Origin: an uncultured Williamsia sp.
GTDB taxonomy: Bacteria > Actinomycetota > Actinomycetes > Mycobacteriales > Mycobacteriaceae
Assembly: GCF_947494875.1 (NCBI RefSeq)
Contig: NZ_CANLWM010000001.1
Span: 992,001 to 1,056,000, forward strand
DNA: 64,000 bases
Reading direction: 5' to 3'
The notes below the pieces were generated by a model, which saw only the letters and a list, made by a program, of their open reading frames with translations, was not told where the DNA came from and made no database searches. This document shows positions 32,965 to 48,060 of the stretch, piece after piece. Positions within the stretch are counted from its first letter, which is position 1, and each line of letters opens with the position of its first letter. The position numbers and the translations under genes are program-made.

Positions 32965-34410
32965 TCACGCGTCCTGGATCCGCGCGAACGCGCGATCGGC
33001 CTCGAGTGTGAAGGCGAGCTCCAGCAGGGTGGCCTCGTCGCCGTGGTCGGCCGAGAGCTGCACCCCCAGGGGCAGTCCCGTCGACGTCGAGGCCACGGGC
33101 AGCGAGATCGCGGGCCCGCCGGTCGCGTTGTTCAGCGGGGTGAACGCGACCCAGCGCACCAGGCGGGGGAAGAGGACGTCGAAACCCTGCGCGGGCGACA
33201 GGTGTCCGAGTTCGGGCGTCGTGTGCGCGACCGTCGGTGAGAGCATCGCGTCCAGTCCCCGGTCGGCGAACGCGGCGCGGTACTTGGCCTCCGACGCGCG
33301 CAGGCGCCACAAGGCCGCGGGTGTCCGCCAGAAGTTCCGCTGGAACCGTCGTGACAGTCCCGTCGTCAACGACTCGAGTTCGGACGCCTCGAACTCGGGG
33401 CTCATGATGCGACGACCGAACTTGGTCAGCGCGAACCCGAGCATGGACCAGTAGTGGACGAAGTCGTCCTTGAAGGCGACGAGGTCCTTCTCGGGCAGGG
33501 GTAGACCGACCGGGATGATCTCGTGCCCGAGTGCCTCGAGCCGCTCCGCGGTGGCCGTGACCGTGGCCCGGGTCTCCTCGTCGACGGGGAGTTCGCTGAT
33601 TGAGCGGTCGACGAGACCGATCCGCATCCGCCGATCCGACGGGCCCTCGACGTGCCCGATGGGCCGCAGGCGTGGGGCCGGTCGGTACCGCTCGACCTGC
33701 GCCGCGAACGCAGCGGTGTCGCGGACGGTGCGCGTGAGGGCGCCGTTGCTCACGAGGTTCACGGGCATCTGGTCGGCGTGGTCGTCGGGCAGCTCCCGGC
33801 CGCGCGTGAACTTCAGCCCGACGAGACCGCACGCGGCGGCGGGGATGCGGATGGATCCGCCGCCGTCGTTGGCGTGGGCGATCGGGACCACACCGGACGC
33901 GACGAGTGCCGCCGATCCGCCGGACGACGCTCCCGCCGAGAACCGGGTGTCCCATGGGTTCGGGGTGGCCGGCGCGTCCTCGAACTCGGTGCTGGCGTTC
34001 AGGCCGAACTCGGGCATCCGCGACTTCGCCAGGCTGATGACACCGGTCGACAGGTACTGGTCGGTGACCGGCGCGTTCCGCCTCGCCGGTCGACCGTGCA
34101 CGGCGCGGGAGCCCTGGTCCGACGGGAGCCCGGCGACGTCGGTGTTGTCCTTCACCACGGTCGGGACACCGGCGAACACACCCTTGCCGGGACTGCGCGC
34201 GAACGCGCGGGCGCGATCGAAGTCGGGGTGGGCGATCGCGTGCAGGGCGCCGACGGTGTCGAGACGGGCGAGTGCGGCGTCGACCGCCTCGAGAGCCGAG
34301 ATCTCGCCGGACGCGATGCGAGCCGCGAGACCGGTCGCGTCGTCGTCGCCGAGCGCGTCGTCGGTGAAGGCGTGGACCCGGACACCGGTGTCCGGGGAGG
34401 TATCCGTCAT
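32965..34410 (-). CDS. Amidase-signature-family amidase
   Basis: 481 aa. The Ser-cisSer-Lys catalytic triad is visible: Lys in VPTVVKDN (about K87), the SAGASSGGSAA segment (Ser about 162-163) and the nucleophile in NDGGGSIRIPA (about S186). The C-terminal part has the TPLNNATGGPAISLP strand. Substrates may be small amides, N-acyl amino acids or carbamates. It is divergent from the GntR regulator, with a palindromic operator between, suggesting it belongs to the same catabolic regulon. Confidence 0.88.
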   Translation of the reverse strand: MTDTSPDTGVRVHAFTDDALGDDDATGLAARIASGEISALEAVDAALARLDTVGALHAIAHPDFDRARAFARSPGKGVFAGVPTVVKDNTDVAGLPSDQGSRAVHGRPARRNAPVTDQYLSTGVISLAKSRMPEFGLNASTEFEDAPATPNPWDTRFSAGASSGGSAALVASGVVPIAHANDGGGSIRIPAAACGLVGLKFTRGRELPDDHADQMPVNLVSNGALTRTVRDTAAFAAQVERYRPAPRLRPIGHVEGPSDRRMRIGLVDRSISELPVDEETRATVTATAERLEALGHEIIPVGLPLPEKDLVAFKDDFVHYWSMLGFALTKFGRRIMSPEFEASELESLTTGLSRRFQRNFWRTPAALWRLRASEAKYRAAFADRGLDAMLSPTVAHTTPELGHLSPAQGFDVLFPRLVRWVAFTPLNNATGGPAISLPVASTSTGLPLGVQLSADHGDEATLLELAFTLEADRAFARIQDA

Positions 34411-34463
34411 CCGCCGACCTTATCGAGCGGGCGAGAACAGGTTCCCTGTCACACGGGTGGTTG

Positions 34464-34497
34464 GATTGTTGACAATCTACCGTCGGGACCGCACCAT
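34464..34497 (+). promoter_or_regulatory. GntR/FCD operator (copy 1) with embedded promoter
   Basis: The palindrome GATTGT-TG-ACAATC (34464-34477) includes TTGACA (34469-34474) as a -35, followed after 17 nt by CACCAT (34492-34497) as a weak -10 directed at the GntR gene. It sits between the divergent amidase and GntR genes. A 13-nt core, ATTGTTGACAATC, recurs upstream of the class III aminotransferase at 47013-47026. Confidence 0.7.
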
Positions 34498-34567
34498 CGG
34501 ATCACTGACCGAGACGAACTGGGGAGACCGCCCTGACTGTCGTGTACGGGCACCACCGGGTGTGCCC

Positions 34568-35296
34568 ATGACCGAAGCCGCAGCCGCCGCAGGCGCACGT
34601 CGCCGTGTGCTCGCGCCCCTGGTGCAGGAGTCGACGCCGGCGATCATCGCCCGGCAGTTGCGCACTGCGATCGCCGAGGGCGAGTTCCCGCCCGGTTCGC
34701 AGCTCACCGAGGCAGGATTGGCCGCTGACCTGGGCGTGAGCCGCGGTCCGCTGCGGGAGGCGATGCAACGTCTCACGCAGGAGGGATTGCTCGTCAGCCA
34801 CCGCAACCGTGGGTTGTTCGTCATCTCCATGGACGACGACGACATCAACGACATGTACGTGGCGCGGACAGCGATCGAGCGCGCCGCCCTCGCGCAGGTC
34901 GTCGCCCGTCACGACGACGAGGACCTCGCGGTGCTGCAGGCCGCCATCGACCACATGCAGCAGTTCGCCGACGACCCGAACGGCCGCGAGATCGCCGACG
35001 CCGACATGGCTTTCCACGCCCAGCTCGTCGAATGTGCTCGCAGCCCACGCTTGTCGCGGATGCACGAGACCGTCCTCGTCGAGACGCGAATGTGCCTGGG
35101 CGCCATGCGCGGTACCTACGTGTCGGCGCAGGCGCGCATCGACGAACACACCGATCTGCTGCGAGCCGTGGAGGCTCGCGACCCGGAGTCGGCCGACCAG
35201 CTGATGATCGCGCACATGCGTGACGGCCTGTCACGGATCATGCCGGAGGAATCGACGGTGACCGCACGGACGGTGCCCCCGCGGCACCCGACCTGA
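34568..35296 (+). CDS. GntR-family regulator, FCD subfamily
   Basis: 242 aa. A winged helix (IIARQLRTAIAEGEFPPGSQLTEAGLAADLGVSRGPLREAMQRL at about 25-68) is followed by an all-helical FCD ligand domain (about 85-230). Metal or ligand positions are suggested by the DADMAFHAQLVE and ARIDEHTDLLRAVEARD segments. FCD regulators sense organic acids and amino-acid derivatives and usually repress catabolic operons. It is next to the MHS symporter gene. The matching operator at two loci indicates its likely regulon. ATG 34568 is used; a GTG at 34562 is possible. Confidence 0.9.
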   Translation: MTEAAAAAGARRRVLAPLVQESTPAIIARQLRTAIAEGEFPPGSQLTEAGLAADLGVSRGPLREAMQRLTQEGLLVSHRNRGLFVISMDDDDINDMYVARTAIERAALAQVVARHDDEDLAVLQAAIDHMQQFADDPNGREIADADMAFHAQLVECARSPRLSRMHETVLVETRMCLGAMRGTYVSAQARIDEHTDLLRAVEARDPESADQLMIAHMRDGLSRIMPEESTVTARTVPPRHPT

Positions 35297-35414
35297 CCAG
35301 CACAAGCGTGCGGATTCTCCGCATCCGGCGAGCCGAGGGTCTACCGTCGAACAGTCTGAGAGTCCGGATCGAGACCGCGTCCGGAGAGTCGATGCCCCCG
35401 ATGGCGGCGGAGGA

Positions 35415-36800
35415 ATGATGACAACCAAGACAGCATCCGACGGTCCCGCGCCGGACCTTCCCGACTCTGACTCGCCGGAGGGGAAGAAGCTGCTGCGGAA
35501 GGCGATCGGCGCGTCTGCCATGGGCAACGCCACCGAGTGGTACGACTACGGCGTCTACGCCGCGACCGCGACCTATCTGACGCAGGCGTTCTTCCCCGGC
35601 GACCTGGGGACCATCGGCACGATGCTCGGCTTCGCGGTGTCGTTCGCGCTGCGCCCTCTGGGCGGCATGGTGTGGGGTCCGATCGGCGACCGTATCGGCC
35701 GAAAAGCCGTTCTCGCCATGACGATTCTGTTGATCTCGATCGCGACCGCCCTCATCGGTGTCCTGCCGACGCACGCGGTGGCGGGCGTGTGGGCTCCGAT
35801 CCTGCTCATCGTCCTACGTGTGGTGCAGGGCTTCTCCACCGGTGGTGAGTACGGCGGCGCGGCGACGTTCATGGCCGAGTACGCCCCGGATGCCAAGCGC
35901 GGCCGGTACGGATCGTTCCTGGAGTTCGGGACGCTCGCCGGTTTCGTCATGGGAACCGCCTTCGTCCTGTTCCTGGAGCTCGGCCTGACCGACGACCAGA
36001 TGCAGACCTGGGGCTGGCGTATCCCGTTCTTCTTCGCACTGCCGTTGGGCCTCGTCGGCCTCTATCTGCGGAGCCAGATGGAGGACACCCCGGTGTTCCG
36101 CGAGATCGAGCAGAAGGGCGAGATCGAGGGCACGGCATGGTCGCGCTTCGTCGACCTGCTCCGCGACTACCGCCGCCCGATCATCATCATGTTCGGGATG
36201 GTGATCGCGCTCAATGTCGCCAACTACACCCTGTTGGCGTACCTCCCGACCTATCTGAAGAACACGATCGGCCTGGACGGCAACAACTCCACGGTGACGA
36301 TGCTCATCGGTCAGTTGGTGATGATGGCGCTGATCCCCTTCGTCGGGCGCCTGTCGGACAGGACCGGTCGCAAACCGATGTGGTGGGGATCGTTGATAGG
36401 CCTGTTCGTGTTCGCGCTGCCCATGTTCTGGTTGATGGGCAAGGGCTTCGTCTGGGCCATCATCGGTTTCGTGGTGCTCGGTGTGCTGTACATCCCGCAG
36501 CTGGCGACCATCTCCGCGACCTTCCCGGCGATGTTCCCGACCCAGGTCCGCTACGCGGGTTTCGCGATCTCCTACAACGTGGCCACGGCGGCGTTCGGTG
36601 GTACCGCACCGCTGGTGAACGACGCTGTGGTGGAGAACAACTCGGGATGGGACCTCTTCCCTGCGGGGTACATGATGATCGCCTGCGCGATCGGCATGGT
36701 GTCCATGCTGTTCCTCCGCGAGACCGCCGGCACGTCCCTGCGCGGGACCGAGATCCCCGGCGAGGCGACCGACGCCGAGAAGGCGCTCACCTCCGCCTAG
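35415..36800 (+). CDS. MHS-family proton symporter, ProP-like
   Basis: 461 aa and 12 spans. GNATEWYDYGVYAATATYLTQAFFP in TM1, FALRPLGGMVWGPIGDRIGRK (motif A), VVQGFSTGGEYGGAATFMAEYAP and WGWRIPFF closely follow the ProP layout, the osmolyte importer for proline, glycine betaine and ectoine. No C-terminal coiled coil is present, so osmotic gating as in E. coli ProP is unlikely; a nutritional importer fits better. A second ATG (35418) is better spaced from GGAGGA. The gene ends overlapping the flavin-reductase stop. Confidence 0.87.
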   Translation: MMTTKTASDGPAPDLPDSDSPEGKKLLRKAIGASAMGNATEWYDYGVYAATATYLTQAFFPGDLGTIGTMLGFAVSFALRPLGGMVWGPIGDRIGRKAVLAMTILLISIATALIGVLPTHAVAGVWAPILLIVLRVVQGFSTGGEYGGAATFMAEYAPDAKRGRYGSFLEFGTLAGFVMGTAFVLFLELGLTDDQMQTWGWRIPFFFALPLGLVGLYLRSQMEDTPVFREIEQKGEIEGTAWSRFVDLLRDYRRPIIIMFGMVIALNVANYTLLAYLPTYLKNTIGLDGNNSTVTMLIGQLVMMALIPFVGRLSDRTGRKPMWWGSLIGLFVFALPMFWLMGKGFVWAIIGFVVLGVLYIPQLATISATFPAMFPTQVRYAGFAISYNVATAAFGGTAPLVNDAVVENNSGWDLFPAGYMMIACAIGMVSMLFLRETAGTSLRGTEIPGEATDAEKALTSA

Positions 36801-37396
36801 CTCGGGCGTTCGAGGTCGACCGTCGAGCTGGGCAGGCCCCACTCCATCCGGCCGAGACGGCTGACGGCGGCGAGCTTGGCGTAGTCGGGCATGCCGTCGT
36901 CGGCCAGGATCTCGGGATCGATGGTCAGGGCCACGACCTCGCCCATCACGACGACGCTGTTCCCGACCTCGACACTCCGGTGCAGGCGGCACTCGATGGC
37001 CACCGGGGAGTCCCGGACGCGTAGACAGTCGACGACGGTGGCGGGGGCCGAGGGGATGTCGGCCTCGACGAACTCGTCGATGTCGCGGTCGAACCCGGCG
37101 GAGCTCGCGTTCGCCTTCTCCATCAGCGCCTGGGTGGCGATGTTGATGACGAACTGGCCGGTCTCGATCGCGTTGCGCGCGCTGTCCTTCGCGCCGCCGA
37201 CCGACGTGAACTGCACGACCGGTGGCGCCGTCGACGACACCGAGAAGAAGCTGTACGGCGACAGGTTGTCGACGCCGTCGGAGCTGCGGCTCGACACCCA
37301 GGCGATGGGCCGAGGAACGATGCTCGAGGTCAGCAGTTGGTAGAAGCGGCCGGGGTCGACCTCGGCGGGGTCGTGCACGATGCGGTCGGAGGACAT
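36797..37396 (-). CDS. Flavin reductase-like FMN-binding split-barrel protein
   Basis: 199 aa with the split-barrel pattern YQLLTSSIVPRPIAWVSS (about 18-35), LSPYSFFSVSSTAPP, VQFTSV and GQFVINIA, typical of the flavin reductase-like group that binds FMN. It could supply reduced flavin or serve as an uncharacterised oxidoreductase. The start is ATG 37396; much longer readings are shadows across the M20 gene. It is the last gene of the minus-strand run (97-bp gap to the preceding gene) and overlaps the symporter stop by 4 bp. Confidence 0.82.
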   Translation of the reverse strand: MSSDRIVHDPAEVDPGRFYQLLTSSIVPRPIAWVSSRSSDGVDNLSPYSFFSVSSTAPPVVQFTSVGGAKDSARNAIETGQFVINIATQALMEKANASSAGFDRDIDEFVEADIPSAPATVVDCLRVRDSPVAIECRLHRSVEVGNSVVVMGEVVALTIDPEILADDGMPDYAKLAAVSRLGRMEWGLPSSTVDLERPS

Positions 37397-37493: not shown

Positions 37494-38714
37494 TCAGCCG
37501 AGGAGGCGCAGGGCGAGAACGGCGTAGGCGCGGGCGGCGGTGACGAGATCGTCCACGGCGACCGATTCGTCGGGTTGATGGGCCTGGCCGTTGATGTCAC
37601 CGGGCCCCAGGACGATGCAGTCGACGCCGAGGTCGCGGCTGACGAACCCGCCGTCGCAGGCGGCGGTCCAGCCGCCGATGGATGTCGTGGCGCCGACGGC
37701 GGTGACTGCGTCGACGGCTGCTCGGACGAAGCCGTTGTCGGGTGCGGTGCGGAATCCCGGCATCGACATCGTGACGGCGACGTCGACCTCGATGCCGTCG
37801 GTGTCGATCCCACGACGACGGACCTCGGCGCGGAGGTCGGCGGCGATCTGCTCGGCGTCCTCGTCGGGCATGAGCCGACGGTCGATGCCGATGGCGCAGT
37901 TCGGCGCGACGGCGGAGATGCCCTGGCCGCCGGTGATGGTCCCGACGTTCCACGTGCCGGCCCCCAGCAGCGGGTCGAGGTCGGCCTGCATCGCGCCGTG
38001 GTCGGCCCGGATGATGTCGATGACCTTCGCGGCGGCGTCGATGGCGTTGCGACCGTCCGCGGGCCGACCGGAATGCGCTGCGCGCCCGCGGATCTCGATC
38101 TCGATGTACGAGGCGCCACGGCAGGCGATCACGGTCTCCATCGCGGTCGGTTCCGCGACGACGCACCCCGCGTAGCCACCAGGATGCAGGGGGTACGACG
38201 ACGGCGACCCGACGAGGTCGCGCACGCCGATGCCGTGCTCCTCCTCGTCGACGGTGCACACCAGCTGCAGGGGACCGGAGAGGGTCTCACCGCGGAGGGC
38301 GTCCATCGCGGCCACGATCGCCGCCAGGCCGCCTTTCATGTCGGTGCTGCCGCGGCCGATGATGCGACCGTCGGCGACGCGCGCGGCGAAGGGGTCCCCG
38401 GTCCAGCCCGGTCCGGGCGGGACGACGTCGGAGTGCCCGAGGAACATCAGGCCGGGACCGTCGCCTCCGGGCAGCGTCGCGACCAGGTTGGGGCGCCCCG
38501 GGGCGGCCTCTCGGATCTCGACGGTCGCGCCGACGCGTTCTGCCGCGGCACGTAGCACCGCCACCGCGTCGCCCTCCGTCCCACCGGGATTGACGCTCGG
38601 GGCCTCGACGAGTGCGGTGGTGAGCGCGACGATCGCCGTGGAGTCGACGCGGTCGCAGACCGACCGCTCACGGTCGGTGGGGGCGGCCACGGGGGACGTC
38701 ACGGCATCGGTCAC
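37494..38714 (-). CDS. M20-family ArgE/DapE-type deacetylase
   Basis: A 406-aa two-zinc hydrolase. Metal ligands are visible in FLGHSDVVP (His), GRGSTDMKGG (bridging Asp), CTVDEEEHG (catalytic Glu-Glu) and CVVAEPT, with the late SAACDGG-like and AHQPDE segments. A dimerisation lid domain lies between about residues 190 and 310. In this gene run it is the best candidate to remove the N-acetyl group from the ectoine-derived intermediate, in place of the AstE-like DoeB. It starts at GTG, overlapping the aminotransferase stop (GTGA). Confidence 0.87.
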   Translation of the reverse strand: MTDAVTSPVAAPTDRERSVCDRVDSTAIVALTTALVEAPSVNPGGTEGDAVAVLRAAAERVGATVEIREAAPGRPNLVATLPGGDGPGLMFLGHSDVVPPGPGWTGDPFAARVADGRIIGRGSTDMKGGLAAIVAAMDALRGETLSGPLQLVCTVDEEEHGIGVRDLVGSPSSYPLHPGGYAGCVVAEPTAMETVIACRGASYIEIEIRGRAAHSGRPADGRNAIDAAAKVIDIIRADHGAMQADLDPLLGAGTWNVGTITGGQGISAVAPNCAIGIDRRLMPDEDAEQIAADLRAEVRRRGIDTDGIEVDVAVTMSMPGFRTAPDNGFVRAAVDAVTAVGATTSIGGWTAACDGGFVSRDLGVDCIVLGPGDINGQAHQPDESVAVDDLVTAARAYAVLALRLLG

Positions 38715-39937
38715 GCGACCATCTTCTCAAGGCTCACCGTGAGCCGCCGGATGCCTTCCTCGATGCGCTCGGGCGTGCTGGAGGCGAAGCAGAGACGCAG
38801 CGCGTTGCGGAACCGGCCGCCCGGCGACAGCGCCGGCCCGGGGATGAAGGCGACGCCGTCGGCGAGTGCGCGTTCGAACAGCTCGCGCGTGTCGATCTCG
38901 CCGAACTCGCCGGTCAGCGTGAGCCACAGGAAGAACCCGCCCTCGGGGTTCGTCGTCGTGACGCGGTCGCCGAGGTGCCGGGCGATCGAGTCGAGCATCG
39001 CGTCCTTGCGTTCCCGGTAGAGCCCGCGGATCTCCTCGAGGTGGGCGTCGAGGCCACCGCGCGCGATGTACTCGGCGACGATGTGCTGGTTGGGCACGTT
39101 GGTGCACGTGTCCATGGCCTGCTTGCCGTTGATGAGCAACTGCCGCAGCGACGGGTCGGCGTCGACCCAGCCGACGCGCCAGCCGGGCGCGAGGATCTTC
39201 GAGAACGTGCGCACCGAGAACAGCAGCGGGTCCTCGGGGCTCAGGGTGCGGAACGTCGGGATGTCGGTGCCGTGGAACCGGAGCAGGCCGTAGGGGTCGT
39301 CGTCGATGATCACCGAGCCCCACCGGTGGGCGAGCTCCAGCAACGCTTTCCGCCGCTCCAGCGACAGCGTGACGCCGGACGGGTTCTGGAACGTCGGGAT
39401 GGTGTAGATCGCCTTCGGGGGTCGGTGATGGTGTGCCACCAGGTCTTCCATGAGGTCGACGCGCATGCCCTCGTCGTCGACAGGGATCTCCAGCAGCTGC
39501 GCCCCGTAGGACAGCGCTGTCGCACTCCCGTTGGTGTACGTGGGGGATTCGACCACGACCAGGTCGCCGGGGTCGACGAAGAGCTTGCACGCCAGGTCGA
39601 GGCCCTGCATGCCACCGGTGGTGATGACGAGGCGGTCCTCGCTCGACGGGTCCGGCGTCCCCGCGAGGTACTTCACCAGCAGTTCGAGCAGACGGGGCTC
39701 GCCCTCGGTGGCGCCGTAGGTGAACGACGAGCTGTCGAGGATGGATCCGGCGATCTCGCGGAACTCCTCCGACGGCACGGCCTCGTCGGCCGGCGAGCCC
39801 ATCGCGAACCGGACGATGTCGTGCTTCTGCGCCGCGAGAAGCGACGTCGACGAGTCGATCATCGACCCGACGAGGTCCTTCGCCCGACCGGCCAGCGGCA
39901 GGGTGGGGCTGTGGTGCGCCAGTTCGGTGGCGGTCAT
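38711..39937 (-). CDS. Class I/II PLP-dependent aminotransferase (2-aminoadipate/LysN-like)
   Basis: A 408-aa fold-type I aminotransferase. PLP Lys is in RTFSKILAPGWRVGW (about K247). Other landmarks are GATEGEPRLLELL (about 74-86), PTFQNPSGVTLS, IIDDDPYGLLRF and the C-terminal RLCFA Arg region. The arrangement follows MocR catalytic domains and KAT/LysN aminotransferases without the winged helix. Its amino donor/acceptor is unknown. Start and stop are tightly packed with the M24 and M20 genes, so it belongs to the operon. Confidence 0.88.
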   Translation of the reverse strand: MTATELAHHSPTLPLAGRAKDLVGSMIDSSTSLLAAQKHDIVRFAMGSPADEAVPSEEFREIAGSILDSSSFTYGATEGEPRLLELLVKYLAGTPDPSSEDRLVITTGGMQGLDLACKLFVDPGDLVVVESPTYTNGSATALSYGAQLLEIPVDDEGMRVDLMEDLVAHHHRPPKAIYTIPTFQNPSGVTLSLERRKALLELAHRWGSVIIDDDPYGLLRFHGTDIPTFRTLSPEDPLLFSVRTFSKILAPGWRVGWVDADPSLRQLLINGKQAMDTCTNVPNQHIVAEYIARGGLDAHLEEIRGLYRERKDAMLDSIARHLGDRVTTTNPEGGFFLWLTLTGEFGEIDTRELFERALADGVAFIPGPALSPGGRFRNALRLCFASSTPERIEEGIRRLTVSLEKMVA

Positions 39938-39971: not shown

Positions 39972-41165
39972 TCACTTGCGGATCAGTTCGCGCGGGACGG
40001 AGGTGAAGGTCTCGACGCCGGACGCGGTGACCCGCACCGACTCCGACACCTCGAAGCCGTACCCGTCCATCCACATGCCACCGATGACGTGGAAGCACAT
40101 GTTCTCCTCGAGCACGGCCTCGTCCTCGGTGCGGATGCTGATGGTGCGCTCGCCCCAATCGGGGGGATAGGCGATACCGATGGAATAGCCCAGACGCGAG
40201 GGCTTCTCGAGTCCATACTTCGCCAGCGTCCAGTTCCACGTCGACGCGAGCTCTCGCGTCGCGACGCCGGGCCGGATGGTGTCGAGCACGTTGTTCAGAC
40301 CCTCGATGGCGGCACCGGCGACGTAGTCGACATCCGGGTTCGGCGTCCCGATCGCCACCGTCCGCGCCAGGGGACAGTGATAGCGGTTGTGCGCGCCGGA
40401 CAGTTCGACGACGACGGCCTCGTCGTTCGCGAAGGTGCCCTGGTTCCAGGTGAGGTGCGGGGTGTCGGCGGCCGCACCGGTCGGCATCATCGGGACGATA
40501 GCGGGGTAGTCACCCCCGAACTGCTCGGTCCCGGTGATCTGCGCCTGGGAGATCACCGCGGCCGCATCGCACTGTCGCACACCGGCGTCGATGATCTCGA
40601 TCGCGGCGCGCATCGCCTCCGAGCACACCATCCCCGCCTGCCGCATCAGCTGGATCTCGGGATCGGACTTGATCGACCGCACCCAGTTGACGATCTCGAA
40701 GCAGTCGACCAGCTTCCACTCGGGGATCGCGTTGAACAGCGCGCGATACGCCTTGGGTGGGAAGAAGTGCGAGTCCATCTCGAGCCCGACGCTGCCCTGC
40801 TTGGACGCCGGCGCGATGAGGTGCCGCTGGCGCAGCGACCAGGCGACCCAGTCGAACGGGTGCACGTGCGGACGGTGCACGTAGCTCTCCGGGTAGCCGA
40901 CGATCTGGTCCTCCGGCAGCCACGTTGTGCGATGCGCGCCCTTCGCGTCCATCTCCCGCAGGTAGAACACCATCTCGCCCTCGATGGGGACGAACAGCAT
41001 CTGCGGGGTGTAGAACGACCACGCGTTGTAGCCGATGAGGTAGAAGATGTTCGCCGGGTCGGTGACGATGACCGCCGAGAGACCCTGACGTTCCATGAGT
41101 TCCCGGACGCGGAGCAGCCGGTGGGCGTATTCCTCGTCGGTGAAGAGTTGGGATCCGAGGTACAC
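39972..41165 (-). CDS. doeA: Ectoine hydrolase-like M24 protein (DoeA/EutD family)
   Basis: A 397-aa pita-bread-fold protein, the size of ectoine hydrolases. Family-like segments are NAWSFYTPQ, DAKGAHRTT, GGDYPAIVPMMPTGA, HLTWNQGTF, RYHCPLARTVAIG (about 255-267) and IAYPPDWGERT. DoeA opens the ectoine ring to N-acetyl-L-2,4-diaminobutyrate. The usual M24 metal-ligand Asp pair is altered here (VELSG and CPLAR in the places of DxG and DxxR), as in creatinase/DoeA rather than true Xaa-Pro peptidases. The GTG at 41165 follows AGGGGA. Neighbours supply deacetylase, aminotransferases and dehydrogenase. DddP-like or creatinase-like activity is the main alternative. Confidence 0.8.
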   Translation of the reverse strand: MYLGSQLFTDEEYAHRLLRVRELMERQGLSAVIVTDPANIFYLIGYNAWSFYTPQMLFVPIEGEMVFYLREMDAKGAHRTTWLPEDQIVGYPESYVHRPHVHPFDWVAWSLRQRHLIAPASKQGSVGLEMDSHFFPPKAYRALFNAIPEWKLVDCFEIVNWVRSIKSDPEIQLMRQAGMVCSEAMRAAIEIIDAGVRQCDAAAVISQAQITGTEQFGGDYPAIVPMMPTGAAADTPHLTWNQGTFANDEAVVVELSGAHNRYHCPLARTVAIGTPNPDVDYVAGAAIEGLNNVLDTIRPGVATRELASTWNWTLAKYGLEKPSRLGYSIGIAYPPDWGERTISIRTEDEAVLEENMCFHVIGGMWMDGYGFEVSESVRVTASGVETFTSVPRELIRK

Positions 41166-41174
41166 GGCGGTCCC

Positions 41175-42644
41175 CTAGGTCCGCGGGATCGCGAGGTACT
41201 TGGTCTCGAGGAACTCCTCGATCCCGACGCGGCCGCCCTCACGGCCGAGCCCCGACTCCTTGACGCCGCCGAAGGGTGCGGCCGGGTTCGAGACGAGACC
41301 GGTGTTCAGACCGACCATGCCGACCTCGAGCTTCGACGACAGCCGCAGCGCGCGGTCGATGTCCTGGGTGAAGAGGTAGCCGACCAGGCCCCACGGGGTG
41401 TCGTTGGCGAGGCGGATCACCTCGTCCTCGTCGTCGAACGGGATGAGAGCCGCGACGGGACCGAAGATCTCGGTCGCCATGAGATCGGATTCGGCGCTCA
41501 CGTCGGTGAGAACGGTGGGCGGGTAGAAGAATCCGGGCCCGTCGGGCACCGTTCCACCGCACATCACCGTGGCACCCCGCGCGACGGCGTCGTCGACGAG
41601 CTCGCGGACCTTGGTGAGGGCCTTCTCCTCGACGAGCGGACCGACCTGGGTGCCGTCAACGGCACCGTCGCCGACGCGCAGGGCGCTCATCTTCTCCGTC
41701 AGCTTGCTCCCGAACTCGTCGGCGACGCTGCGGTGCACGAAGATCCGGTTGGCCGCCGTGCAGGCCTCGCCCATGTTGCGCATCTTCGCGACCATCGCGC
41801 CGTCGACGGCGCGATCGATGTCGGCGTCGGCGCAGACGACGAACGGCGCGTTGCCGCCCAGTTCCATCGACGTGCGCATGACGGTGCCGGCGGCCTGCTC
41901 GAGCAGCAGCTTCCCCACGGCCGTCGACCCGGTGAAGCTGAGCTTGCGGGCGAGTCCGCTCGTCATCCACTCGGTGACCACGGGGCCGGGGTCGTTCGTC
42001 GTGACGATGTTCAGCACACCGTTCGGCAGGCCGGCCTCGGTGAGGATGCCGGCGAGTGCCAGCGAGGTCAGCGGGGTCAGCTCGGCGGGTTTGAAGACCA
42101 TGGTGCAGCCGGCGGCGACTGCCGGGCCGATCTTGCGGGTCCCCATGGCCAGCGGGAAGTTCCACGGCGTGATGAGCACGCACGGCCCGACGGGCTCCTT
42201 GGTCACGATGACGCGATTGGCCCCGTCGCCGGTGGTGGTGTGGTCACCGCCGATGCGCACGGCCTCCTCGGCGAACCACCGGAAGAACTCGGCGCCGTAG
42301 GCGACCTCACCCTTCGCCTCGGCGAACGGCTTGCCCATCTCGGTGGTCATGATCAGCGCGAGCTCGTCGACCCGATCCATGATGAGCCGGTGTGCGCGGT
42401 AGAGGATCTCGCTGCGCGACCGCGGCGATGTCGCCGCCCACGACGCCTGCGTGGCGGCGGCGGTCTCGATGGCCCGGCGGGCGTCCACGGCACCACCGTC
42501 GGCGACGGTGGCGATCTCCTCGCCGGTCGCGGGGTTGATCACGGGGAACGTCGCGCCGGATTCGGCGGGCACCCACTTGCCGTCGATGAACAGCCCGGTG
42601 TCGAGCGCTCTGATCGTCTCGGCAGCGGATCGGGTGTCGCTCAC
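41175..42644 (-). CDS. NAD(P)-dependent semialdehyde dehydrogenase (SSADH/DoeC-like)
   Basis: 489 aa, aldehyde dehydrogenase superfamily. It has ITPWNFPLAM (cofactor), FTGSTAVGKLL, general-base Glu in MELGGNAPF (about E261), the nucleophile Cys in MGEACTAANRI (about C295) and EIFGPVAAL. These match succinate-semialdehyde dehydrogenases, a family that includes DoeC, which oxidises aspartate semialdehyde in ectoine breakdown. The start is GTG 42644, overlapping the oxidase stop by 4 bp; readings to 43256 are shadows. The M24 gene follows after 9 bp. Confidence 0.92.
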   Translation of the reverse strand: MSDTRSAAETIRALDTGLFIDGKWVPAESGATFPVINPATGEEIATVADGGAVDARRAIETAAATQASWAATSPRSRSEILYRAHRLIMDRVDELALIMTTEMGKPFAEAKGEVAYGAEFFRWFAEEAVRIGGDHTTTGDGANRVIVTKEPVGPCVLITPWNFPLAMGTRKIGPAVAAGCTMVFKPAELTPLTSLALAGILTEAGLPNGVLNIVTTNDPGPVVTEWMTSGLARKLSFTGSTAVGKLLLEQAAGTVMRTSMELGGNAPFVVCADADIDRAVDGAMVAKMRNMGEACTAANRIFVHRSVADEFGSKLTEKMSALRVGDGAVDGTQVGPLVEEKALTKVRELVDDAVARGATVMCGGTVPDGPGFFYPPTVLTDVSAESDLMATEIFGPVAALIPFDDEDEVIRLANDTPWGLVGYLFTQDIDRALRLSSKLEVGMVGLNTGLVSNPAAPFGGVKESGLGREGGRVGIEEFLETKYLAIPRT

Positions 42645-45600
42645 GGTGTCTCCCTCGTCTCGGTCGGGGTCGGGCGGTCGGGGTCGATCAGTTCGGCGAG
42701 GTGCGTCCCGGTCACCGCGTCGATGGCGGCGTCGACCCCGGCGAGGTGATCGACGGCCATCGCGCAGCTGAAACCGTCGGTGAGGACGGGTTCGTCGGGC
42801 CGACGAGATCGCAGTGCCGGTGCGAGCGCCTGCTCGCCGACCGCCATCCCGACCTCGTAGTGTCCCCGCTCGAACCCGAAGTTGCCCGCCACGCCGCAAC
42901 ACCCGTCGGCCGAGCGGACGTCGGCGACGCCGAGGCGACGCAAGACCGACGCCTGGGTCGACGGGCCGAACACCGCGTACTCGTGGCAGTGGGTCTGCAC
43001 GGTGACGGCCTGCGGCACCGGCGGGGGAGTCCAGCCGTCGTCCAGCATCGCGCCGACGTGCGTGGCGAAGCTGCGGACTCGTGCGGCGACCCGCCGCGCG
43101 GCGTCGGTGTGGACGAGCTCGGGCAGGTCCTTGCGCAGCGCGGCCGCGCAGCTCGGCTCGGGGACGACGATGGGACGGTCGGTGCCGTCGTCGAGCGCAT
43201 CGGCCGTGCGGATGAGCACCTTCCGGGCGCGGTCGAGCTGGCCAGTCGAGATCCACGTCAGCCCGCAGCAGTTGTCCCTCTCGCAGCTGACGCTCTCCGC
43301 GCCGCCCATCACCCGCGCCGCCGCCTCGGCCACCTCCGGACGGAACGCCTTGGTGAACGAGTCGACGAACAGCACGGCCGACGCGTCGTCACGCCGGACG
43401 AGCGAACGGAGCGCCGCGCGGACCTGCTTGCGCCGCGCGAACCTCGGCATCGACCGCCGTGCGTCCAGGCCGGCGACGCGGGCGGCCGGGCCGGCGAGAC
43501 GCGTTCCGAGCACCGCGTTGATCATCGGGGCCACCGCAGTGGCGATGCTCAACCACGCCGGCATCCACCCCAGCGAGTAGTGCGACATGGGACGCTTCCG
43601 ACCCCTGTAGTGGTGGTGGAAGAATTCGGCCTTGTAGGTGGCCATGTCGACGCCCGTGGGGCAGTCGGTCGAACACGCCTTGCACGACAGGCACAACTCG
43701 AGCGACTCGCGGACATCCTCCGACCGCCAGCCGGATTCGACGTCGGGCGCCGAGCGGAGCATCTCCTGCAACACACGGGCGCGGGCTCGGGTGGAGTCCT
43801 TCTCGTCGCGGGTGGCGCGGTAGCTCGGGCACATCACGCCGCCGCTGTGCGAGCGGCACCGTCCCACGCCGATGCACGCCTGCGTCGCGTGGACGAACGG
43901 GTCGAGATCGGTGCCCGCGGGGACGTCGGTGTCCGCGGCGTGCGCGGACCCGGGTATGCCGAGATCGAAGACGGTGTTCCAGGTGCGGCGGGGGATGTCG
44001 GCGAGTGCGAGGTCGTCGCCGATCGGTGCCGGGTCCACGATGCTTCCGGGGTTGAGCAGGGCCTCGGGATCCCAGATGCCCTTGAACCGCTCGAACAGTC
44101 GGATCATCTCCGGCGAGTACATGATCGGCAGCAGCTCCGAGCGCGCCCGGCCGTCGCCGTGTTCCCCCGACAGCGACCCGCCGTGGTCCACGACGAGCTG
44201 GGCGGCGTCGCGGACGAAGGCGAGCATCGTCGCGCGGCCGGACTCCGTGCGCTGGTCGAACGTGACCCGGACGTGCATGCAGCCGGCGCCGAAATGGCCG
44301 TACATGACGCCCGTGAGGCCGTGGTGGTCCAGCAGGTCGCGGAAACCCTCGAGGTACTCGGGGAGGCGCGCGGGGGCGACGGCGGAGTCCTCCCAGCCGG
44401 GCCACGACTCGTAGCCCGCACCGGCGTCGGGGTCGTCGAGGTCGACCAGACGCGACGACAGTCCGGCGCCGTCCTCACGGACGCGCCACAGCATCGACCG
44501 CGCCGCGGGATCGGTGACGGTGCGGGTGTCGACGAGGCGGCCGTTCGACCGCAGCTTGTCGGCGAGATCGGCGACGGCTGCGGCGATGTCGTCGACACGA
44601 CCGCCGACGCTGTGCTCGTCGAGTTCGATGTAGATCCAGGCGTTCCCGTCGGGGAGGCCGTCGACCGACGCGCGGCCGCGCCGGGCGCGCATGGTGGCGA
44701 CGATCCGCTCGTCGATGCCCTCGATCGCCGACGGCGCGAAGTCGAGCATCGTCGGCACGTCGCGGGCAGCGTCGACCACGTCGCGGTAGCCGACACAGAG
44801 CAGCTGAGGATGCTGGGAGACGGGGACCAGCGCCACGGTCGCGGCGACGACGATCGCGCAGGTCCCCTCGCTGCCCACCAGCGCGCGGGCGACGTGGAAG
44901 CCGTGCTCGGGCAGGAGGTGTGCGAGGTGATAGCCCGACACCTGGCGGGGTATCCGCTCCAGCTCGACGCGCAGCGGTGCGAGGTTCTCGGTCGCGAGGT
45001 CCCGCAGCGATTGCTCGATCTCGGCGGCGCGGCGTACCGCGACGGTGTCGGACGGGTCGGCGGCGCGCAGGCCTGTCGCGGTCGCGACCAGGAGGTGACC
45101 CTCCGCGGTCACGACGGTCACGTCGACGACGTGGTCGGTGGTACGTCCGTACCGGACGGAGTGGTTGCCGCAGGCGTCGTTGCCGATCGCGCCGCCGAGG
45201 CAGGCGCGCGACTGGCTCGACGGGTCGGGGGCGAAGGTGAGCGCACCGTCGCTGGCCTCGCGGACGTGCTTCTGCAGCGCGGTGAGGACCACGCCGGCCT
45301 GTGCGGACGCGGTGCCTGCGTCGGTGTCGACGGCGAGCACGCGTGTCATGTGTCGCGACAGGTCGATCACGACTCCGGACCCGATGGCGTTGCCGCCCAT
45401 GCCCGTTCCGCCGCCCCGGGGGATGACGGGAACACGATTGCTGTGACACCAGGCGACAGCCGTGGCGACCTCGCCGGCGTCGCGCGGGAACACCACGCAC
45501 AGCGGCCTCAGCCGGTAGTTCGAGGCGTCATAGGAGTACTCGGCCCGACGGCGCGTGGAGTCGTCGGCGAGCAGGCCCAGTTCGCGCAGGGCGCTGCCGG

Positions 45601-45646
45601 CCGCGGCGGCGTCGATCGCCGTCGGCCGTGACGAGGTGACGGTCAT
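42641..45646 (-). CDS. FAD- and Fe-S-containing 2-hydroxyacid oxidase (YdiJ/DLD-like)
   Basis: A 1001-aa three-part protein. A VAO-type FAD domain (about 45-280; VIPRGGGTGMGGNA) and FAD-oxidase C-terminal domain come first. A ferredoxin-like part follows, with two Cys clusters near 587 (CIGVGRCRS...CPSY) and 650 (CLSCKACSTDCPTG). Last come two CCG motifs near 793 (CCGLTW) and 917 (CCGVAGNFG). This is the E. coli YdiJ layout, a respiratory D-2-hydroxyglutarate dehydrogenase group. It presumably oxidises a D-2-hydroxyacid and passes electrons to the membrane chain. Lying second in the operon, it implies a hydroxyacid intermediate. Confidence 0.88.
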   Translation of the reverse strand: MTVTSSRPTAIDAAAAGSALRELGLLADDSTRRRAEYSYDASNYRLRPLCVVFPRDAGEVATAVAWCHSNRVPVIPRGGGTGMGGNAIGSGVVIDLSRHMTRVLAVDTDAGTASAQAGVVLTALQKHVREASDGALTFAPDPSSQSRACLGGAIGNDACGNHSVRYGRTTDHVVDVTVVTAEGHLLVATATGLRAADPSDTVAVRRAAEIEQSLRDLATENLAPLRVELERIPRQVSGYHLAHLLPEHGFHVARALVGSEGTCAIVVAATVALVPVSQHPQLLCVGYRDVVDAARDVPTMLDFAPSAIEGIDERIVATMRARRGRASVDGLPDGNAWIYIELDEHSVGGRVDDIAAAVADLADKLRSNGRLVDTRTVTDPAARSMLWRVREDGAGLSSRLVDLDDPDAGAGYESWPGWEDSAVAPARLPEYLEGFRDLLDHHGLTGVMYGHFGAGCMHVRVTFDQRTESGRATMLAFVRDAAQLVVDHGGSLSGEHGDGRARSELLPIMYSPEMIRLFERFKGIWDPEALLNPGSIVDPAPIGDDLALADIPRRTWNTVFDLGIPGSAHAADTDVPAGTDLDPFVHATQACIGVGRCRSHSGGVMCPSYRATRDEKDSTRARARVLQEMLRSAPDVESGWRSEDVRESLELCLSCKACSTDCPTGVDMATYKAEFFHHHYRGRKRPMSHYSLGWMPAWLSIATAVAPMINAVLGTRLAGPAARVAGLDARRSMPRFARRKQVRAALRSLVRRDDASAVLFVDSFTKAFRPEVAEAAARVMGGAESVSCERDNCCGLTWISTGQLDRARKVLIRTADALDDGTDRPIVVPEPSCAAALRKDLPELVHTDAARRVAARVRSFATHVGAMLDDGWTPPPVPQAVTVQTHCHEYAVFGPSTQASVLRRLGVADVRSADGCCGVAGNFGFERGHYEVGMAVGEQALAPALRSRRPDEPVLTDGFSCAMAVDHLAGVDAAIDAVTGTHLAELIDPDRPTPTETRETP

Positions 45647-45656
45647 GGGCGAGGTG

Positions 45657-46985
45657 TCAGCCCAGCACGTCGTCGACGGCGGCGGAGAACCGTTGCAGGC
45701 CTGCGGTGATCTCGTCCTCGGTGACGACGAGCGCCGGGATCAGACGCACGACGTTGCCGAGCGGTCCGCAGGTCAGCGTGAGCAGTTCGTGGCCGATCGC
45801 CGCCTGTTGCACCGCGGCGGCAGCGGCGGCGTCAGCGACGGGCACGGCGCCCGGGGCGGACGGGTCGACGAACTCGATGCCCGCCATCAGACCGCGCCCA
45901 CGCACGTCGCCGATGCGCGGGTTGCGGGCCTTGATCTCCTGCAAGCCGTCGAGAAGCTGATCCCCACGGACGCGGGCGTTCTCGACCAGGTTCTCGTCGC
46001 GGATGACGGCGAGGGTCTCCACACCGGCCGCAGCGGCCACGGCGTTGCCGCCGTAGGTGCCACCCTGCGAGCCCGGCCACGCCTTGCTCATCAGCTCGGT
46101 CGACGCGGCGATCGCGGAGATCGGGAAGCCCGAGGCGATGCCCTTCGCGGTGATGAGGATGTCGGGGACGACGCCCTCGGCGAACTGGTGCCCCCAGAAC
46201 TTCCCGGTGCGGCCGACCCCCGCCTGCACCTCGTCGACGATGAGCACGATGCCGTGGCGGTCGGCGCGCTCGCGCAGTCCCTGCAGGAACGCGGGCGGCG
46301 TCGGCAGGTATCCGCCGTCACCGAGGACCGGCTCGATGAGCATGGCCGCGGTGTCGATCGGCGCGACGCGCGAGGCGAAGAGGTAGTCGAGCTCGCGCAG
46401 CGCGAACTCGACCGCGGACGCCTCGTCCATCCCGTAGCGGTAGGAGTAGGGGAACGGCGCCATGTGGACGCCGCTCATCAGCGGCGAGAAGCCGGCGGAG
46501 AACTTGGTGCCCGCGGTGGTGAGGCTCGCCGCGGCGACGGTGCGTCCATGGAAACCGCCCTGGAACACCACGATGTTCGGGCGTCCGGTGGCCATGCGCG
46601 CCAGGCGAATCGACGCCTCGACGGCCTCGGACCCGGAGTTGGCGTAGAAGACGGAGTCGAGCCCCTCGGGCAGGACCTCGCCGAGCGCGTCGGTGAGCGC
46701 GAGCAGCGGCTGGTGCATCACCGTCGTGTATTGCGCGTGGATGATCTTCCCGCACTGTTCCTGCGCCGCGGCGACCACGCGCGGATGGCAGTGGCCGGTG
46801 CTGGTGACGCCGATGCCGGTCGTGAAGTCGAGGTAGGCGTGTCCGTCGGTGCCGTGGATCCACGAGCCCTGTGCATGGTCGACGACGACCGGCGTGGCCT
46901 GTTTGAGCGCCGGGCTCAGCGTGGCGCGCGGGCGCGGCGCGGCTGCGGATGTCGAGGCGGGCGTGGAGGCCAACGTGGACGTCAT
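45657..46985 (-). CDS. Class III omega-aminotransferase (GabT/DoeD-like)
   Basis: 442 aa. Landmarks are GIGVTSTGHCHPRV (about 57-70), YANSGSEAVEASIRLAR, FQGGFHGRT, IVDEVQAGVGRTGKFW and the PLP Lys in ILITAKGIASGFP (about K281). Members transfer amino groups from 4-aminobutyrate, diaminobutyrate, ornithine or similar; DoeD converts diaminobutyrate to aspartate semialdehyde. It is the first gene of the minus-strand run. Its ATG lies 6 nt after a weak -10, so its message is probably leaderless, with the GntR operator on the -35. Confidence 0.9.
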   Translation of the reverse strand: MTSTLASTPASTSAAAPRPRATLSPALKQATPVVVDHAQGSWIHGTDGHAYLDFTTGIGVTSTGHCHPRVVAAAQEQCGKIIHAQYTTVMHQPLLALTDALGEVLPEGLDSVFYANSGSEAVEASIRLARMATGRPNIVVFQGGFHGRTVAAASLTTAGTKFSAGFSPLMSGVHMAPFPYSYRYGMDEASAVEFALRELDYLFASRVAPIDTAAMLIEPVLGDGGYLPTPPAFLQGLRERADRHGIVLIVDEVQAGVGRTGKFWGHQFAEGVVPDILITAKGIASGFPISAIAASTELMSKAWPGSQGGTYGGNAVAAAAGVETLAVIRDENLVENARVRGDQLLDGLQEIKARNPRIGDVRGRGLMAGIEFVDPSAPGAVPVADAAAAAAVQQAAIGHELLTLTCGPLGNVVRLIPALVVTEDEITAGLQRFSAAVDDVLG

Positions 46986-46991
46986 GGCCAC

Positions 46992-47026
46992 AGGGTGACG
47001 GGCCGATGGTCGGATTGTCAACAATT
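46992..47026 (-). promoter_or_regulatory. GntR/FCD operator (copy 2) with embedded promoter
   Basis: GATTGT-CA-ACAATT (47013-47026) reads ATTGTTGACAATC on the minus strand, matching 13 nt of copy 1. TTGACA (47021-47016) serves as -35 and CACCCT (46997-46992) as -10 with 18-nt spacing, placing transcription start at or next to the aminotransferase ATG (46985). It also lies between the divergent aminotransferase and hydroxyacid dehydrogenase genes and may control both. Confidence 0.7.
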
Positions 47027-47088
47027 GGACCATCCACCCCGCGCGGTGTCGGATCACCACCGACGACGGGCCGCACTACGGTGGGCGC

Positions 47089-48060
47089 ATGAGTGCCCGA
47101 CCGGTGCGCCTGACCGTCCTCACCCGCGACGATCTGGACCCGCCGCACAATCTCGACGAGATCGCCGAACTGGCCGACATCCGCCTCACGACCGCCGCGT
47201 CGCTGGCCGATGACCTGCGCGGGAGCGGCGTCCTGCTCCTGTGGGACTACTTCTCCTCCGCGTTGCGCGACGCGTGGTCGGGGGCGGACTCCCTGCGGTG
47301 GGTCCACGTGTGTGCGGCCGGGGTGGACGCCATGCTGTTCGACGAGCTGCGCGCCTCCGACGTGACCGTGACCAACGCGCGCGGGGTCTTCGACGGGCCC
47401 ATCGCGGAGTTCGTCCTCGCATCGATCCTCGCCCGCGACAAGCAACTGCACCTCAGTCGCGCATTGCAGCGCGAGCACGACTGGCGCTGGCGCGAGACCC
47501 GACGCATCGCCGGCTCCACGGCGCTGGTCGTCGGGACCGGGGGCATCGGCCGCGCCACCGCCCGGCTGCTCCGCGCCGCGGGTCTCCAGGTGACGGGCGC
47601 CGGACGCACGGCTCGCGACGACGATCCCGACTTCGGCACCGTCGTCTCCACCGGCGACCTCGTCGACCACGTCGGAGACGCGGACAACGTCGTGCTCATC
47701 GCCCCGCTCACCGAGCAGACCGCGGGGCTCGTCGACGCGCGGATCCTGGCCGCCATGAAGTCCTCGGCCCACCTGATCAACGTGGGCCGGGGTGCGCTCG
47801 CGGTCGAGGACGACCTCGTCGCCGCGCTCCGGAACGGGACGATCGCCGCGGCGTCGCTCGACGTCGTCGAGACCGAGCCACTGCCCGACGACAGCCCCCT
47901 GTGGGACATGGAGAACGTCGCGATCTCGCCGCACATGAGCGGCGACGTCGTCGGCTGGCGTGACGAGCTCGCCGACCAGTTCCTCACCCGGCTGCGCGCC
48001 CACGTCGCCGGTGAGGAGCTCGTCGGCGCCGTCGACAAGCAGCGCGGCTACGTGCACTGA
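47089..48060 (+). CDS. D-isomer-specific 2-hydroxyacid dehydrogenase
   Basis: A 323-aa NAD(P)-dependent dehydrogenase. It has the Rossmann loop VVGTGGIGRATARLL (about 144-158), catalytic Arg in INVGRGAL (about R234), Glu in the DVVETEPLP region (about 260) and His in ISPHMSG (about H282). It interconverts a 2-oxoacid and D-2-hydroxyacid. It is divergent from the aminotransferase and shares the GntR operator region, and the operon also encodes a YdiJ-like D-2-hydroxyacid oxidase. Together they could channel reducing power or detoxify a 2-oxoacid by-product. Confidence 0.9.
   Translation: MSARPVRLTVLTRDDLDPPHNLDEIAELADIRLTTAASLADDLRGSGVLLLWDYFSSALRDAWSGADSLRWVHVCAAGVDAMLFDELRASDVTVTNARGVFDGPIAEFVLASILARDKQLHLSRALQREHDWRWRETRRIAGSTALVVGTGGIGRATARLLRAAGLQVTGAGRTARDDDPDFGTVVSTGDLVDHVGDADNVVLIAPLTEQTAGLVDARILAAMKSSAHLINVGRGALAVEDDLVAALRNGTIAAASLDVVETEPLPDDSPLWDMENVAISPHMSGDVVGWRDELADQFLTRLRAHVAGEELVGAVDKQRGYVH

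Follow-up and report, generated by a model that had tools for sequence, protein, structure and literature searches.

A conserved Williamsia gene cluster around a divergent DoeA-like hydrolase: a probable regulon for ectoine feeding, with a tentative ending in D-malate

The stretch of DNA analysed here (the window) is a 64 kb piece of the 4.77 Mb genome G000, contig C1:992001-1056000. It carries a run of 11 genes arranged around M24, a protein related to the ectoine hydrolase DoeA/EutD. The M24 protein is 96% identical to its counterparts in Williamsia serinedens and W. deligens, and the host, a soil actinobacterium, is therefore a Williamsia. The other genes encode two aminotransferases (AT3 of class III and AT1 of class I), an M20-family deacylase (M20), an aldehyde dehydrogenase (ALDH), a D-2-hydroxyacid dehydrogenase (HDH), a YdiJ-like oxidase (YDIJ), a symporter of the MFS family, a regulator with FCD and GntR domains (FCD), a flavin-reductase-like protein (FLAV) and an amidase. 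The run is very likely a regulon for feeding on ectoine, perhaps on 5-hydroxyectoine. Beyond diaminobutyrate, the pathway may proceed to D-malate through what we call the 2-hydroxy-GABA shunt (GABA, 4-aminobutyrate), for which the chances appear a little below even.

The M24 protein is most similar to DoeA. Its best match among all sequences in the Protein Data Bank (PDB) is ectoine hydrolase DoeA (6twk/6yo9, 1.7e-105), and prolidases come next, from 1e-22, which rules out a peptidase. The DoeA model TIGR02993 ranks first among the NCBIfam models with 408.8 bits, and the 24.4 bits for DddP rule out that enzyme. The DoeA/EutD kinship proposed in an earlier sequence-only reading of this DNA is borne out, the scores showing no grouping with DddP or peptidases. 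In an alignment that included the doeB-linked proteins of Sinorhizobium meliloti and Klebsiella, M24 has the same replacements as these two proteins at positions that we take to be the metal ligands in peptidases of this fold, and the motifs GGDYPAIVP, RYHxP, YPPDWGER and HPxD are kept; one spurious row of the alignment (L002:1-200) was excluded from this comparison. The score is nevertheless below the curated TIGR02993 cut-off of 613, as are those of the DoeA-like proteins of Priestia (530.8) and Haladaptatus (470.6). The best match, the kept motifs and the altered ligands, together with the score below the cut-off, point to M24 as a divergent DoeA relative that has kept the DoeA signature, and opening of the ectoine ring is its predicted activity.

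The phylogenetic tree places the 20 actinobacterial M24 rows in one clade (support 100/100). This clade is not nested with the two doeB-linked rows, and its sister is a proteobacterial set, with weak support (84/88), to which no substrate is assigned; like the score below the cut-off, both points weigh against a simple assignment as DoeA. The members of the sister set that were read (Shinella, Mesorhizobium and SAR116) adjoin M20-family genes and no longer carry the GGDYPAIVP and RYHxP motifs. The outgroup rows, two paralogues from the window's own genome, are longest open frames and probably in the wrong reading; the tree has no bearing on peptidases. As a separate observation, the M24 query matches 28 Klebsiella plasmid records. 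One of these plasmids from K. pneumoniae, pINF061.3 (L107), carries an ectoine cluster with ehuABCD, a gene of the PLP-dependent aminotransferase family (probably a MocR-type regulator), doeA, doeB, and then a gene of the cystathionine-gamma-synthase family.

The neighbourhood of M24 is conserved among actinobacteria. A contig scan for M24 gave 154 matching stretches, 147 of which encode relatives. The best 80 of these 147 were used, comprising 57 actinobacterial loci (L004-L060) and 23 proteobacterial loci (L061-L083). Gene presence in each locus was decided by identity thresholds of our own setting; several loci end at contig ends, gene calls in some relatives are rough (by codon-position GC or length), and several flanking genes (alanine dehydrogenase, the acetyltransferase before ectB) were identified by eye. 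M24, AT1 and M20 are consecutive in 51 of the 57 actinobacterial loci (exceptions L029, L042, L044, L046, L052 and L055), and the order AT3-YDIJ-ALDH-M24-AT1-M20 is colinear in 35. AT1 and M20 are each present in 53 loci, MFS in 45, AT3 and ALDH in 44 each, YDIJ and HDH in 42 each, FCD in 39, FLAV in 5 and the window-type amidase in 4. When only loci above 21 kb are considered (45 in all), the counts are 42 for AT1, 41 for M20, 38 for MFS, 37 for AT3, 38 for ALDH, 36 for YDIJ, 35 each for HDH and FCD, and 4 each for FLAV and the amidase. The co-presence and the conserved order of the six genes rule out a chance run. Presence in 5 and 4 of the 57 loci rules out FLAV and the window-type amidase, respectively, as core parts; the sequence-only reading had listed both with the cluster, and both are lineage-specific. 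Citricoccus has the smallest unit, which consists of M24-M20-MFS.

Two further observations were made among these loci. The cluster in L017, a record titled Kitasatospora arboriphila NRRL B-24581, is near-identical to that of Williamsia muralis (L015, L033), including the DNA between AT3 and HDH, and this assembly is therefore probably mislabelled or contaminated. In addition, four Micrococcaceae loci have alanine-dehydrogenase-like genes close to the cluster (L041:8603-9682, L044:16990-18108, L048:18168-19247 and L050:8658-9764), in L044 with a palindrome (see below) nearby; they may recycle pyruvate as amino acceptor.

The palindrome ATTGT-NN-ACAAT, with at most one mismatch allowed, is found twice in the window, where 0.09 occurrences are expected and none of 100 shuffles reaches two. 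Both copies are located in divergent control regions, HDH/AT3 and amidase/FCD. M24 is present in seven of eight Williamsia genomes, and the six M24-bearing genomes that were scanned (G000-G005, with G006 excluded) have two sites each genome-wide, within about 8 kb of M24. The actinobacterial loci contain 107 sites, in 50 of the 57 (all except L029, L032, L042, L046, L052, L053 and L055); none of 19 permuted versions of the half-site gives any hit, and the 23 proteobacterial loci have no sites. The palindrome recurs upstream of AT3/HDH, of M24 and of the amidase-DUF3830-FCD-MFS run, and EutA-like and RidA genes also have it in their control regions. Operators of the FadR subfamily have TKGT/ACMA boxes with a usual GT-AC spacing of 3, according to PMC4494728. 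The palindrome fits this consensus, with a spacing of 2, and FCD is the protein expected to bind it. An FCD-type regulon, as had been suggested from the sequence, is supported by a defined palindrome common to both control regions.

The palindrome is not a signature of the M24 regulon alone, which is ruled out by 15 sites in 10 relatives without M24 (0-3 each). This weighs against its specificity, as do the two of four sites in Gordonia G305 that are off the M24 contig; the corresponding numbers are one of three in G. aichiensis and two of five in G. paraffinivorans. Some relatives without M24 have two or three palindromes within a few kb (G081:C1:1833556-1837269, G057:C78:17248-22711 and G242:C34:164403-168739), perhaps belonging to another FCD regulon.

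All the genes that the sequence-only reading had named in the run and its flanks are present and open throughout, as seen from open reading frames (ORFs) and Pfam matches (Table 1). The gaps are +10 nt for AT3-YDIJ, -4 for YDIJ-ALDH, +9 for ALDH-M24, +34 for M24-AT1, -4 for AT1-M20 and +97 for M20-FLAV. Of the four junctions between the oxidase gene and M20, three are therefore tight, as had been noted; FLAV is not closely joined to the run. The start of AT3 is most likely the ATG at 46985 rather than the upstream GTG at 47060 of the ORF list, because the palindrome occupies the sequence between them. Motifs that we take to be catalytic or metal-binding are present as expected in M20, AT1, AT3, ALDH, HDH and YDIJ.

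Table 1. Genes and candidate operators of the M24 run (positions in the window)
Feature	Position	Strand	Domains or basis
Amidase, PRK07869 type, divergent from FCD with a common control region, lineage-specific	32965-34410	-	PF01425; NF005899 641 bits, cut-off 418
Palindrome ATTGT-NN-ACAAT, amidase/FCD intergenic, candidate operator	34465-34476	.	motif search
FCD, GntR/FadR-subfamily regulator	34568-35296	+	PF07729 (FCD) 89 bits, PF00392 (GntR) 64 bits
MFS symporter	35415-36800	+	PF00083, PF07690
FLAV, flavin-reductase-like, peripheral	36797-37396	-	PF01613, 75 bits
M20, ArgE/DapE-type deacylase, candidate N-acetyl-diaminobutyrate deacetylase	37494-38714	-	PF01546, PF07687
AT1, class I aminotransferase, KAT-II/LysN group (alpha-amino groups)	38711-39937	-	PF00155
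M24, DoeA/EutD-like ring hydrolase, altered metal site	39972-41165	-	PF00557, PF01321
ALDH, succinate-semialdehyde-dehydrogenase-like	41175-42644	-	PF00171
YDIJ, FAD and 4Fe-4S D-2-hydroxyacid oxidase, YdiJ/D2HGDH/D-LDH-like	42641-45646	-	FAD_binding_4, FAD-oxidase_C, Fer4_8, CCG
AT3, class III omega-aminotransferase, GABA-aminotransferase-like	45657-46985	-	PF00202
Palindrome ATTGT-NN-ACAAT, HDH/AT3 intergenic, candidate operator	47014-47025	.	motif search
HDH, D-2-hydroxyacid dehydrogenase, divergent from AT3	47089-48060	+	PF02826

Ectoine or hydroxyectoine is the likely substrate. Further members of the regulon in Gordonia and the Arthrobacter-type loci are a PRK06169-type amidase, a DUF3830 protein and one or two proteins with the Asp/Glu-racemase fold, for which the best NCBIfam model is EutA. 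In a metagenome-assembled genome (MAG) of Pseudarthrobacter, two EutA-like genes are followed in one block by RidA, EhuA, EhuC and EhuB; a palindrome is located 100 bp upstream of the start called for ehuB. EhuB (263.5, cut-off 190.9), EhuC (265.9, cut-off 196.95) and EhuA (371.2, cut-off 345.4) all pass their NCBIfam cut-offs, and L057 has a relative of EhuD, 48% identical to that of S. meliloti. The regulon of the Pseudarthrobacter relative includes a putative ectoine transporter; in the window there is only the MFS symporter, which shares 41% identity with its MFS counterpart in the Priestia cluster. Ehu and EutA-like genes thus stand under the same palindrome in relatives, and the substrate assignment rests on more than M24. 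The ectoine reading of the sequence alone has in this way gained support, from EhuB and the EutA-like genes as well as from the DoeA-like M24. The window's own genome also has ectB and ectC above cut-off. In this ect run (G000:C5, minus strand), ectB and ectC are followed directly by a second gene of the D-2-hydroxyacid dehydrogenase family (L159:4926-5840), 35% identical to HDH over 250 aa. Separately, many Gordonia and Arthrobacter-type loci have a DUF3830 gene next to the amidase (for example L035:14620-15150 and L027:16078-16584); no match is found in the window, and DUF3830 is not named in the open-licence literature searched.

Several points weigh against this assignment. The EutA-like proteins reach 91-97 bits where the cut-off is 318, the Gordonia EutA-like protein finds no counterpart in the window's own genome, and the window contains no Ehu block, the only hit being to a general ABC ATPase near 59.5-60.2 kb. 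The substrate might instead be another cyclic amidine or an acylated diamine, with the Ehu-like and EutA-like proteins of the relatives shifted in specificity. Such a substrate would be consistent with the scores of M24 and the EutA-like proteins below the curated cut-offs, and with the sister M24 group, which pairs with M20 outside an evident ectoine context and lacks GGDYPAIVP. We consider it improbable, as EhuB, EhuC and EhuA pass their cut-offs in the regulon of a relative, and the window M24 keeps the DoeA motifs that its sister group has lost.

The EutA-like genes bear also on a reading in which the unusual genes serve 5-hydroxyectoine. Here 3-hydroxy-diaminobutyrate, formed once the ring is opened and the acetyl group removed, would be converted by AT3 and ALDH to 3-hydroxyaspartate and by AT1 to oxaloglycolate, with HDH and YDIJ handling tartrate, hydroxypyruvate or glycerate. 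EutA has been linked to hydroxyectoine (PMC5924519), and the EutA-like genes share the palindrome in the Gordonia and Arthrobacter-type loci. Moreover, HDH also resembles glyoxylate/hydroxypyruvate reductases, and haloarchaeal clusters with DoeA-like genes hold an EutB-like lyase (see below). On the other hand, the own genome is without an EutA-like match, the window has no match to EutA, EutB or EutC at 1e-3, and YDIJ would be redundant if the product were glycerate. We regard this pathway as improbable.

The deacetylation step of the likely ectoine pathway lacks its usual enzyme. No match to DoeB/EutE (TIGR02994) is found at E 0.001 in the entire own genome, and within the window there is no match at 1e-3 to DoeB or AsnC either, the search for EutB and EutC having been confined to the window. 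EnuR matches only AT1 there, a protein in which Pfam detects no GntR domain. ArgE and DapE models lead the NCBIfam matches of M20, none above its cut-off, and the metal and catalytic motifs are found. M20-family genes recur beside DoeA-like genes in Priestia, Rhizobium etli (with ehuABCD and eutBC), Shinella, SAR116 and haloarchaea; the SAR116 protein is 29-31% identical to M20 of the window. The reading of M20 as a stand-in for DoeB is supported. The pairing of an M20 gene with a DoeA-like gene, to which the sequence-only reading had drawn attention, is therefore not peculiar to this cluster.

The remaining enzymes show different degrees of similarity to those of the textbook pathway. The nearest PDB entry of ALDH is a succinate-semialdehyde dehydrogenase (SSADH; 7.6e-156), and its score against TIGR01780 is 576 bits (cut-off 646). 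It is 44% identical over 468 aa to the SSADH-family protein of the S. meliloti eut region, which places it in the DoeC-type (SSADH-family) group. AT3 is nearest in the PDB to 4-aminobutyrate aminotransferase (5e-85), and GABA-aminotransferase models (336-343 bits) exceed diaminobutyrate-aminotransferase models (274-279), none above its cut-off. The S. meliloti frame that we take from its position to be DoeD is absent from the gene table and apparently disrupted toward its end; AT3 is 28% identical to it over 330 aa, a weak test. AT3 does not look like a DoeD orthologue, and a plain ending to aspartate is therefore doubtful. AT1 is closest to PDB entry 1x0m (7e-85), followed by 3aov and the aminoadipate aminotransferase 2egy. 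HDH belongs to the D-isomer family, with 212 bits against NF041369 (cut-off 400) and the D-2-hydroxyacid dehydrogenase 5mh5 as nearest PDB entry. YDIJ scores 410 bits against the YdiJ model NF049975 (cut-off 1350) and matches D-lactate dehydrogenase (D-LDH) and the mitochondrial D-2-hydroxyglutarate dehydrogenase (D2HGDH) in the PDB; by this score it appears to have a YdiJ-like architecture without being a YdiJ orthologue. The textbook pathway assigns no step to HDH or YDIJ.

A pathway that would use all of these enzymes can be proposed. The ProP-like MFS symporter would import the solute. M24, without the usual two-metal site, would open the ring to give N-acetyl-diaminobutyrate, from which M20 would remove the acetyl group in place of DoeB. 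AT1 would take the alpha-amino group from diaminobutyrate to give 4-amino-2-oxobutanoate, and HDH would reduce this to (R)-4-amino-2-hydroxybutanoate ('2-hydroxy-GABA'). AT3, as a GABA-aminotransferase-like enzyme, would convert the hydroxy-amino acid to malic semialdehyde, the SSADH-like ALDH would produce D-malate, and YDIJ would oxidise D-malate to oxaloacetate. FCD would bind the palindrome in the HDH/AT3 and FCD/amidase regions and repress until a pathway intermediate appears.

Parts of the gene arrangement and distribution in relatives speak for this ending. HDH stands directly before M24, on the same strand, in seven loci (L034-L037, L039, L057 and L059). In L035, L036 and L057, HDH-M24-AT1-M20 run in one direction and AT3, YDIJ and ALDH in the opposite one; this split falls at the hydroxy-amino acid of the proposed route. 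M24 has its own palindrome in some of the seven loci (L036, L059), and HDH and M24 therefore need not share a transcript. Among 14 genomes picked as outliers or examples, AT1 relatives of at least 64% identity are found in 10 (all but the two Citricoccus, B. daeguense and B. casei), YDIJ relatives of at least 59% in 6 and of 46-49% in 5 more, and HDH relatives of at least 50% in 12 (all but the two Citricoccus). At 1e-60, YDIJ has no relative in either Citricoccus genome or in Gordonia jinhuaensis. AT1, YDIJ and a close HDH are thus absent together from both Citricoccus genomes with M24-M20-MFS (one of them a MAG), and are not lost in step in G. jinhuaensis and Brevibacterium.

Other observations count against the D-malate ending. 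G. jinhuaensis holds AT1 and HDH without YDIJ, and two Brevibacterium genomes without AT1 hold 46-49% YDIJ and 52% HDH relatives. AT3 is closer to the diaminobutyrate aminotransferase EctB of its own genome (33% over 421 aa) than to the presumed DoeD, so diaminobutyrate is a possible AT3 substrate. Some D2HGDHs, those of Pseudomonas, oxidise D-malate, a point in favour of this ending, while the YdiJ proteins of E. coli and Pantoea are inactive on it, a point against (PMC9504171).

The canonical ending must be considered here. In this case M20 would give diaminobutyrate (or AT3 and ALDH would act first on N-acetyl-diaminobutyrate), AT3 and ALDH would serve as DoeD and DoeC to reach aspartate via aspartate semialdehyde, AT1 would convert aspartate to oxaloacetate, and HDH and YDIJ would handle side products such as D-2-hydroxyglutarate. 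A class III aminotransferase and an SSADH-type enzyme are the textbook pair (PMC5924519), and the similarities of ALDH to the S. meliloti protein and of AT3 to EctB are consistent with this ending. It accounts less well for the low identity of AT3 to the presumed DoeD and its preference for GABA-aminotransferase models, for the 51 of 57 loci in which AT1 separates M24 from M20, for HDH before M24 in seven loci with AT3, YDIJ and ALDH on the other strand in three of them, and for the recurrence of HDH-type and YdiJ-type genes beside haloarchaeal DoeA-like genes. We regard it as rather unlikely.

The haloarchaeal loci were read for 11 of the 18 DoeA-like rows listed; these are near kin of each other rather than 11 independent cases, and some stretches end inside the cluster. 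Near the 11 genes are a D-2-hydroxyacid dehydrogenase (10), an amidohydrolase (10), a threonine-ammonia-lyase (9), an FAD/Fe-S protein (5) and an aldehyde ferredoxin oxidoreductase (4; L105, L169, L170 and L174). The one locus without the dehydrogenase, L171, comes from an organism that carries another copy, a complete one, in L174, where a single stretch holds M24, the amidohydrolase, an EutB-like lyase, HDH, class III aminotransferases, the aldehyde oxidoreductase and the FAD/Fe-S protein. Identity between the L170 lyase and the EutB proteins of Priestia, R. etli and S. meliloti is 35-40%. Four of the dehydrogenases are 35-36% identical to HDH, and for three of the FAD/Fe-S proteins an alignment with YDIJ over about 1000 aa gives 31-33% identity. 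HDH and YDIJ thus do not appear to be stray genes, because similar genes recur near haloarchaeal DoeA-like genes. No YdiJ-type gene was seen near 6 of the 11 loci, which adds to the points against the D-malate route. With chances somewhat short of even, actinobacteria and haloarchaea might share a second ectoine route that avoids aspartate semialdehyde and passes through D-malate. Diaminobutyrate or its 3-hydroxy form would be stripped of the alpha-amino group by AT1 in actinobacteria and by an EutB-like lyase in haloarchaea. Reduction would give (R)-4-amino-2-hydroxybutanoate, a class III aminotransferase followed by either an SSADH-type enzyme or an aldehyde ferredoxin oxidoreductase would lead to D-malate, and a YdiJ-like oxidase would feed this into the TCA cycle.

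The proteobacterial cluster (eutABCDE/doeABCD, ehuABCD or uehABC, EnuR, AsnC) has in common with the window a DoeA-family hydrolase, a class III aminotransferase and an SSADH-family dehydrogenase, and in the Arthrobacter-type relatives also the Ehu transporter and EutA-like proteins. The window differs in its M20 deacylase, class I aminotransferase, D-2-hydroxyacid dehydrogenase, YdiJ-like oxidase and MFS symporter, in an AT3 that is not DoeD-like, and in having an FCD-GntR regulator and palindrome instead of EnuR (MocR) or AsnC. Hydantoin utilisation presumably follows a similar logic of racemase, ring hydrolase and M20-type deacylase (a carbamoylase), but the ring hydrolase of the window is M24/DoeA-like rather than a hydantoinase.

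A 2018 review confines ectoine consumers to Proteobacteria, and a figure legend in it shows a hydroxyacid dehydrogenase gene of undefined role in one of four proteobacterial clusters (PMC5924519). A 2026 survey describes putative Gram-positive and archaeal ectoine clusters, as provisional and possibly functionally divergent, in which a DoeA-like gene occurs without eutE, with an abgB amidohydrolase in its place (Bacillota) and an MFS or BCCT transporter (PMC13188858). A missing DoeB and a substitute of the M20 type have thus in part been published already. The words hydroxyacid, GntR, FCD, oxidase, Williamsia, Arthrobacter and Gordonia do not occur in the main text of the survey; its Figures 7 and S11 may show some such genes. 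Passages of one Gordonia paper concern the synthesis of ectoine rather than its breakdown. The FCD regulator, the palindrome, the regulon and the D-malate route were not found in the open-licence literature searched, which also yielded no experiment on this cluster.

The cluster offers a testable system, with a candidate regulator and operator, a function pointed to by the Ehu transporter genes that a relative carries under this palindrome, and a candidate substitute for DoeB. The D-malate route, if true, would give a role to genes so far left without explanation in both bacteria and archaea. Ectoine is an industrial product as well as a widespread compound, and a second route for its breakdown would bear on nutrient cycling and on the choice of strains.

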